Assembly: GCF_039994875.1 (NCBI RefSeq)
Contig: NZ_CP121196.1
Coordinates: forward strand, 2,046,001 to 2,110,000
DNA: 64,000 nucleotides
Origin: Telmatobacter sp. DSM 110680
GTDB lineage: Bacteria; Acidobacteriota; Terriglobia; Terriglobales; Acidobacteriaceae
Direction of reading: 5' to 3'
The translations under genes were made by a program, and so were the position numbers. The notes beneath the pieces were generated by a model that was given only the letters and a program-made list of their open reading frames with translations, made no database searches and was not told the origin of the DNA. Of this stretch, positions 2,834 to 5,240 are shown piece by piece (within the stretch, counting starts at the first letter, position 1; each line of letters opens with the position of its first letter).

Positions 2834-4063
2834 CTACGAGGCCTTGAATGACTTCACGGCGATGGCGTTTGGCGCGCGTCCGGCGGGGAGCATCGTAAAC
2901 ATCTGGCAACCGGTGCGCAAAGGTGTGGACACGGCGCAATTGAGTGTGCGCACCACGGCCACGTCGCCGGAGCGTGCATCTACTACGAAGAGCAGATGGC
3001 CAGCAGTGGAAAACGCCAACGCCGAAGGGCCGTCACCCACGTGAATTGAGCCAACGCGTTTGCCGTCTTCGATGGAGTAAACCGTTACTTCCTGGGAACG
3101 CAAGTTGCCGATGTAGAGCAAGGTATTGTCAGCGGAGACAATGCCTCTGACGGGGTCGGCGCCCATCAGGTACGCGCCTCCGACATCATCGGTGCTGGTC
3201 ACAATTTCAGAGATCGAATTCGACAGCGAGTTGGATACGAAGAGTTCGCCGCCATCAGGCTTCAGCGCAAGCTGCACCGGGGCGCGGCCAACGTCGAGGA
3301 GCGATTCCATGCGATCCGTTGCCGCGGGGAGGCCGTCGGGACGGGCTTCATGCGCGAGTTGAATGGCCATGACCTGATGGCCGCCGGAGCAGGCTGCGAA
3401 GCTCTTGGATGAGTCGGGCAGAATGACAACATCATTGGCCCCAGGGCAACCCACTATGACGGTGCGGACTTTGCCGGTGGCGGTGTCGATAATACTGATG
3501 GAGTTTCCGCCGCGATTCGCAACGACGAGAGTTTTGCCGTCAGGCGAAACTCGGGCCGCGGCTGGATCTTCTCCGACGCCAATCTGCGCGACTTCGCGAT
3601 GCGTTTTCAGATCAAGCGCCGAGACACTGTTTGAACCCGAGTTGACTACGTATGCTAGATCTCCCCTGGGATCAAGTGCGATGGCGACCGGCTGCTTGTG
3701 AACGGGGACGGTGGCAGTGACGGAGTTGTTCTCCGCATTGATGACGGCAATGGAACCCTGGCCACCGAGAGTGCCGGAGTTGACTACGTATAGCTCGTTG
3801 CGCACGGGGTTCGCAGCCACGGCGGTCGGGTTTTGGCCGACGGGGATTTCGCGGTCTACGCGGACGTTGACGACGTCATATACGGAGACGGTGCCGCTGC
3901 CGCCATTGGTTACGTATGCATATTCGCGGTAGGCGGGGTCGTATTGGGGGAAGTCGTGAGGACGGCAGGCGGTTAGGGCGAATGTTGCCAGCAGGGATGC
4001 GGTTACGATCCCAGGTCTCAACCGCGAGACCTGGGGCACCCAGAATCGTGACGATTGGAGCAT
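2834..4063 (-). CDS. YVTN-type beta-propeller lipoprotein
   Basis: Predicted periplasmic lipoprotein with a seven-bladed propeller of YVTN/NHL-like repeats. Recurring blocks such as YAYVTNGGSGTVSVYD, ELYVVNSGTLGGQGSIAVI, LAYVVNSGSNSVSALD, TLVVANRGGNSISIID and LFVSNSLSNSISE run from the lipobox to the C terminus. A lipobox LTAC follows a hydrophobic stretch (IVTASLLATFALTAC). The ATG at 4063 gives 409 aa, but this start and the first signal-peptide codons lie inside a hairpin-bearing repeat element (4010-4144). A TTG at 4021 would also give a compact lipoprotein signal. A longer frame to 4204 would translate the whole repeat and overlap aroF, which I consider spurious. The ligand or enzymatic role is unknown. 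Confidence 0.85.
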   Translation of the reverse strand: MLQSSRFWVPQVSRLRPGIVTASLLATFALTACRPHDFPQYDPAYREYAYVTNGGSGTVSVYDVVNVRVDREIPVGQNPTAVAANPVRNELYVVNSGTLGGQGSIAVINAENNSVTATVPVHKQPVAIALDPRGDLAYVVNSGSNSVSALDLKTHREVAQIGVGEDPAAARVSPDGKTLVVANRGGNSISIIDTATGKVRTVIVGCPGANDVVILPDSSKSFAACSGGHQVMAIQLAHEARPDGLPAATDRMESLLDVGRAPVQLALKPDGGELFVSNSLSNSISEIVTSTDDVGGAYLMGADPVRGIVSADNTLLYIGNLRSQEVTVYSIEDGKRVGSIHVGDGPSALAFSTAGHLLFVVDARSGDVAVVRTLNCAVSTPLRTGCQMFTMLPAGRAPNAIAVKSFKAS

Positions 4064-4144
4064 TGCGAAAAGCAGGCCCTTCGCGCAGCTTACCCCGCGA
4101 ACAAGTTGTTCGCGGGGCCCCAAGCTTGCTGCGCTCAGGATGAC
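4010..4144. repeat. Hairpin-bearing element of probable dispersed-repeat type
   Basis: Two perfect inverted repeats sit 57 bp apart. At 4093-4117 is CCCCGCGAACAA-G-TTGTTCGCGGGG (12-bp arms). At 4010-4035 is CCCAGGTCTC-AACCGC-GAGACCTGGG (10-bp arms). On the minus strand the element opens with GTCATCCTGAGCG at its 4144 end. That wording and the paired-hairpin layout match high-copy intergenic repeats I recall from acidobacterial genomes; no second copy is visible in this window. It lies just downstream of aroF, and the first hairpin could act as an attenuator or terminator for it. The second hairpin falls inside the signal-peptide region of the lipoprotein gene. Confidence 0.65.
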
Positions 4145-4160
4145 AGGAGTCTGTTGTCGC

Positions 4161-5240
4161 TTACTTGGTTTTAGCGACATGGGATTGCGCTGCGACGGTT
4201 TCAACGCGGATGCCGCGGACTAGCTTGCGATCGACGATAGGAGCGATCTGTTCAATCTCGTCCATCATGCGCGCGAACTGGTCCGGATAGATGGATTGCG
4301 GCCCGTCTGAAAGCGCCTTTTCAGGCTGGTGGTGCACCTCGACCAGGATGCCGTCGGCGCCTACAGCAACAGCAGCACGCGCCATCGGCAGTACTTTGTC
4401 TCGCTTTCCGGTGCCATGGCTGGGGTCTACGAGGATGGGCAGATGGCTTAGCTTCTGGACAGCGGGAACAATGCTGAGATCGAGGGTGTTGCGGGTGTGA
4501 TCGGCGAAGGTGCGCACACCGCGTTCACACAGGATTACTTCGTAGTTGCCCTCGCTCATGATGTATTCGGCGGCCATCAGGAACTCGTCGAGCGTGGCGC
4601 TCATCCCGCGCTTCAGCAGAACAGGCATGCGGAGACGGCCTGCGTGCTTGAGCAGCGAAAAGTTCTGCATGTTGCGTGCGCCGATCTGCACGACATCAGC
4701 CCAATGGGAAACGAGTTCGAGGGTTTCGTTGTCGATGGCTTCGGTGATGATGCGCAATCCGAAGCGATCGCGGATTTCGGCCATGATTTTGAGTGCTTCA
4801 ACACCGAGGCCTTGAAACGCGTATGGAGATGTGCGCGGCTTGTAAGCGCCACCGCGGAAAAATTGTGCTCCGGTGGCTGCGACCTGCTCGGCGATGGCGA
4901 AGGCTTGTTCGCGACTTTCGATGGAACAGGGGCCGGCCACGATGGCAAGGTTGCGTCCGCCGATGGTGGCATCGGTGCCGGGGAAGCGGATGATTGTGTC
5001 TTCTTCTTTAACATCGCGGCTGGCAAGTTTGTAGGCCTTGGAGACGCGGATCACTTCGGCGACGCCGGAGAGCTCTTCAATGTTGCCGCGGTCGACTTCG
5101 CCCTGGTTGCCGGTGATGCCGATGGCGGTGCGCTGCGCACCGGGCATGGGGTGGGCGCGATAGCCCAAAGCTTCAATATGTTCGCAGACGGCCTGGATTT
5201 GTTCCGCAGTTGCCTGCGCCTTCATCACGACTAACATCAC
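4161..5240 (-). CDS. aroF: 3-deoxy-7-phosphoheptulonate (DAHP) synthase, type I-beta
   Basis: Condenses phosphoenolpyruvate and erythrose 4-phosphate, the first step of the shikimate pathway. 359 residues: an N-terminal ferredoxin-like regulatory domain (about 1-75), then a TIM barrel. Barrel motifs visible include [48 protein letters not shown] and the metal/substrate segment [12 protein letters not shown]. This layout matches the Thermotoga-type enzyme, in which the ferredoxin-like domain mediates aromatic amino acid feedback. The start is MMLVV at 5240 or the next Met. The gene stands apart from other shikimate genes in the window and is followed by the hairpin-bearing repeat. Confidence 0.95.

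Follow-up and report, generated by a model that had tools for sequence, protein, structure and literature searches.

A transposase-linked repeat composite that probably entered the leader of a lipoprotein gene in frame in Telmatobacter sp. DSM 110680

The aroF/lipoprotein junction

The window analysed here, a stretch of 64,000 nucleotides from Telmatobacter sp. DSM 110680 (contig NZ_CP121196.1, positions 2,046,001 to 2,110,000), carries a lipoprotein gene downstream of aroF, and a 139-nt repeat composite at 4007-4145 (module A, linker and module B) lies at their junction. In window coordinates, the features are as follows:

4161..5240, minus strand: aroF, DAHP synthase (PF00793 and ferredoxin-like PF18152), with its stop codon at 4161-4163
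4067..4145, plus strand: repeat module B, with constant ends AAAAGCAGATCCTTCGC... and ...CTCAGGATGACA and a variable palindromic core (here 4093-4117)
4051..4066, plus strand: 16-nt linker between modules A and B, containing the ATG at 4061-4063
4007..4050, plus strand: repeat module A, palindrome CCCAGGTCTC...GAGACCTGGG with tail GGGGCACCC
3965..3967, minus strand: lipobox Cys codon (LTAC), 71 codons after ATG 4180 and 32 after ATG 4063
2834..4180, minus strand: lipoprotein ORF of 448 aa from the conserved ATG at 4178-4180, beta-propeller PF10282/YNCE-like

An earlier note on this DNA had described two perfect inverted repeats between these genes, with an ATG at 4063 between them and the 4010-4035 hairpin encoding part of the signal peptide (WVPQVSRLRPGIV...LTAC), and this description is correct. 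The arms match at 100% in both repeats, with 10-nt arms and a 6-nt loop at 4010-4019/4026-4035, and 12-nt arms at 4093-4104/4106-4117. A fold of the RNA, which that note had proposed as a check, turned out far better than shuffled sequence on either strand (z -4.5 and -5.6, with 0 of 200 shuffles equally good). What had been overlooked is that the lipoprotein frame stays open upstream of both repeats as far as ATG 4180, where it overlaps the 3' end of aroF by 20 nt. By inspection, the leader reads VSRLRPG-IVTASLLATFAL-LTAC and was compared with the plan of a positive n-region, a hydrophobic core and a lipobox, module A being read on the minus strand as WVPQVSRLRPG. From ATG 4180 the leader begins MSLKPS..., matching MTTKPS of a relative (L163), and no Shine-Dalgarno sequence is visible at this codon. 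Module A remains within the translated leader whether translation starts at ATG 4180, at ATG 4063 or at a GTG at the module A edge; a TTG inside module A is the only start that would exclude it.

A dispersed repeat family and its transposase

A BLAST search with 4000-4160 matched at least 49 places in the own genome, a count in which degenerate copies are underrepresented since the scoring took in 40 of 94 candidates; copy numbers therefore combine BLAST with pattern searches. In the 5.99-Mb genome, the patterns located module A as 14 perfect palindromes and module B as 19 strict matches, and the control patterns (reversed for module A) found 0 in both cases. Matches also occurred in 34 of 60 relatives, every one of the same genus, with 0 outside it. 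The suspicion of a high-copy family from Acidobacteriota was thus borne out, within one genus, and a single copy is excluded. An Rfam search gave no match for the repeat. Stretches of A, linker and B were also found joined at three other loci (L002, L003 and L009), with a comparable linker at the first two, so the composite is a recurring arrangement. In module B (e.g., L096, L098 and L099) the ends are constant, and the palindromic core differs in almost every copy yet remains self-complementary.

Most genomic copies of the repeat are intergenic and many lie near gene ends. For module A, 12 of the 14 copies fell outside genes predicted by a simple codon-based gene finder, the two exceptions being the lipoprotein leader and uvrD/pcrA. 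At one further locus (L095 ~1501-1530; own genome C1:5677340-5677365), the ATG that opens a membrane-protein-like ORF shares bases with a module A edge (GGGAT), and the frame upstream of that ATG is open through the repeat, so that here, too, a repeat may lie at the start of a gene.

The genome contains two Y1_Tnp genes (L061 and L062), and such genes were present in 79 of 80 genomes of the genus. L061 encodes a 180-aa Y1 (IS200-like) transposase (PF01797, 42.4 bits against a cut-off of 23) with an EHVHLLV motif, and has inverted module A copies on either side, with the GGGTGCCCC tails facing outward; the downstream copy encodes the C-terminus of the transposase (SQVSESRPGAPSSK). L062 is likewise flanked, by a sister palindrome CCCGGTCCC...GGGACCGGG. 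The L062 gene itself (1464-2040) looks frameshifted, with ~44 extra nt after its YIHRNP motif. Because inverted copies flank a Y1 transposase gene, module A is classed here as a RAYT/TIRtron-associated palindrome, and an IS200-like tyrosine transposase (RAYT/TIRYT) is the likely mover of its family. The family is amplified and probably mobile, its mobility being judged by comparing repeat-bearing with repeat-free sites between species.

Judged from sequence alone, in-frame copies occur in uvrD, recG, an lptC/lptA-like gene, the transposase C-terminus and the lipoprotein leader. In uvrD/pcrA, module A lies mid-gene and is read, in the same frame as in the lipoprotein leader (VPQVSxLRPG), as RVPQVSDLRPG in a linker of the helicase (L089 1501-1526; own genome C1:1540598-1540623), and the same UvrD linker region holds in-frame versions in six congeners (G001, G002, G005, G006, G009 and G012). 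In relatives, copies read as SQVSxxRPGAP are found in recG (L076 810-3035, minus strand) and in the LptC/LptA-like gene (L079 58-2664, plus strand). Di Nocera et al. (2013, PMC3733652) describe REPs in UvrD and further repair proteins from other bacteria, so the copies in repair proteins are that known pattern in a new group. Some UvrD palindromes of congeners show matching changes in both arms (GGTCTC/GAGACC versus GGTCCC/GGGACC).

Orthologous junctions and the translated leader

Orthologues were fetched from the genus, and in 55 species the gene was adjacent to aroF. In 38 of these 55, an in-frame ATG falls between -27 and +24 nt relative to the aroF stop and is followed by an uninterrupted frame down to the lipobox; several further species have a GTG or TTG near the aroF stop instead. 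Seven species in or near the sister clade have an ATG at exactly -20, a repeat-free leader of 33 codons and a gap of 79 nt between the aroF stop and the Cys codon; the clade uniting them with the present genome is supported at 99/92. Here the ATG is also at -20, but the gap measures 193 nt and the leader 71 codons, a net gain of 114 nt or 38 codons, exactly in frame. As the composite is 139 nt long, ~25 nt of the old leader seem to have been replaced, an arithmetic that presumes the sister leaders to represent the ancestral state. The native start of the lipoprotein is therefore probably the conserved ATG 4180 and not ATG 4063, which is a possible second start. The proposal that the repeat had supplied or disturbed the start and leader of the gene thus fares unevenly: the repeat does encode part of the leader, whereas a supply of the start is probably wrong or incomplete, since the conserved ATG appears to predate the repeat. 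That the hairpin had created the gene start was dropped, given the ATG at -20 in the sister species.

In several relatives, the stretch that seems to have been replaced here holds a different hairpin, one resembling a terminator. It is found as GGCGGC...GCCGCC in six of the repeat-free leaders (L034, L036, L046, L154, L163 and L164), at the place taken by the repeat in this genome, and may serve as an attenuator or just encode protein (GG..GRL).

By our reading, palindromes of this kind occupy the junction in 12 species. They read WVPQVSxLRPG in G000 and G010 (decayed in G030), GAPGLASETWD in G002 and GCPTSPAVGDVG in G001. Mapped by parsimony onto a mature-protein tree, their presence requires 8 gains or losses, of which at least 5 are forced by well supported branches. 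Since the junction palindromes differ in family, strand and reading frame between species, repeated independent entry, possibly with some losses, is the simplest account; their number also varies, and many species have none.

Stop codons were counted in the 36 species with long leaders, defined as a gap of at least 100 nt from the aroF stop to the Cys codon. Over 1910 codons the lipoprotein frame contained 6 stops, whereas the other two forward frames had 76 and 33. With the last 25 codons omitted the counts were 6 in 1010 against 35 and 30 (Fisher 7e-7), and with the last 33 omitted 5 in 711 against 18 and 23 (4e-4), these p-values being optimistic since the species are related; 0 of 300 shuffles were as low in each of the three tests. 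The depletion of stops in the lipoprotein frame indicates that, as a genus-wide average, long leaders are kept open. Three species lack any ATG, GTG or TTG 15-45 codons from the Cys codon, which seems to oblige them to use leaders near 60 residues. G008 (L032) has no usable start closer to the Cys codon than one upstream of its third palindrome. At L158, a late ATG and a stop come downstream of the junction repeats, so these are probably non-coding there, a case that speaks against the coding reading.

Competing explanations and related repeat systems

We consider it probable, with the copy number, the flanked transposase gene, the repeat-free sister leaders, the frame evidence from the genus and the same-frame copy in uvrD in its favour, that the 139-bp composite inserted in frame behind the conserved start of an existing lipoprotein gene, became the n-region of its signal peptide and is translated; that the repeat is read as protein, and does not merely lie beside the gene, is likewise probable. 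The composite would have entered the leader with an IS200-like transposase of the module A family as the likely mover, ATG 4180 at the aroF 3' end would have been retained, and the leader would have grown from 33 to 71 codons, with the insert as n-region, and the hydrophobic core and lipobox still derived from the host. Translation would probably begin by termination-reinitiation at the aroF stop and run through both palindromes, a coupling that we infer for this strain because no Shine-Dalgarno sequence is visible at its ATG. Such a site may tolerate insertions because the sequence of an n-region is little constrained and no non-coding gap separates aroF from the lipoprotein gene.

For a lipoprotein, 71 residues make an unusually long leader; a start at ATG 4063 would shorten it to 32, a more typical length. 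This is the strength of an alternative in which the repeat itself provides a working start, translation beginning at the linker ATG with module B as 5' untranslated RNA and only module A coding. The leader would then be close to the ancestral 33 codons and would have three arginines before the hydrophobic core, and module B contributes an SD-like GAAGGG 13 nt ahead of this ATG. Moreover, in this genome alone, chance could account for the ~39 open codons from 4180 to 4063. We nevertheless regard this start as unlikely, as 38 of 55 species retain an ATG at the aroF stop with an open frame, the upstream frames are depleted of stops, and GAAGGG is both too distant and paired in the predicted fold. 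The same pairing bears on the idea that the repeat folds over the ribosome binding site, which is possible at ATG 4063, where GAAGGG is the only SD-like sequence, but matters less if translation starts at 4180. Somewhat less likely still is that the hairpins are mainly RNA elements, which protect or end the aroF message and damp translation of the lipoprotein, with coding as a side effect. The mainly intergenic placement of the copies, many of them close to gene ends, the strong folds, and the other strong hairpin at the same place in the repeat-free leaders of several relatives speak for such a role, yet the junction palindromes vary in kind, number and strand across species, many species do without any, and the T-run of an intrinsic terminator is missing here. 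A chance or purely local origin of the palindromes, without a mobile source, has a negligible probability and is refuted by copy number, in view of the genomic matches, the empty reversed controls and the presence of the palindrome on both sides of a transposase gene. In-frame insertion remains the preferred account of this junction.

The closest known systems are TIRtrons, REP/RAYT elements and Rickettsia palindromic elements. TIRtrons of Acidobacteria combine an IS200-like tyrosine transposase (TIRYT) with inverted repeats that lack the GTAG tag, and one repeat family of this type has been reported in Koribacter versatilis (PMC3733652). The present family resembles them in arrangement, in having a transposase flanked by inverted non-GTAG repeats that are dispersed in the genome, and differs in that its palindromes also lie in frame inside genes. 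With the REP/RAYT systems (REPtrons, BIMEs, REPINs) it shares short, multi-copy, mostly intergenic palindromes and a dedicated, flanked Y1/HUH transposase, but by our reading the GTAG tetranucleotide of GTAG REPs is absent from both strands of 4007-4050; REPs, too, have copies inside genes, among them those for UvrD and further repair proteins (PMC3733652). Rickettsia palindromic elements (RPE) lie in frame in many unrelated genes and are translated (PMC10969869, PMC3733652), and the copies described here are likewise in frame in several unrelated genes, as known from their DNA alone. Unlike the RPE families discussed in PMC3733652, module A lacks a CGTC end tag by our reading, and unlike RPE it has a transposase gene flanked by the same repeat; the lineages are also unrelated. 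No closer account of coding repeats like these in Acidobacteria emerged from the literature searches.

Whether the transposase-associated palindromes of this genus supply protein sequence time and again, repeatedly entering the same signal-peptide leader and the same helicase linkers, being read in frame as VPQVSxLRPG or, in the other orientation, SQVSxSRPGAP, and giving lipoproteins with leaders of ~45-71 residues, appears evenly balanced to us. Di Nocera et al. warned that REPs at the 5' ends of genes are mostly misannotated non-coding DNA (PMC3733652). A locus with dozens of orthologues and repeat-free sister sites permits a statistical test of that warning, and here the outcome falls on the coding side and corrects the likely start codon of the lipoprotein gene. 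If the insertion took place as proposed, repeats linked to a transposase can remodel a signal peptide while the gene survives, and the series of insertions at one site would offer material for studying frame-preserving insertion.
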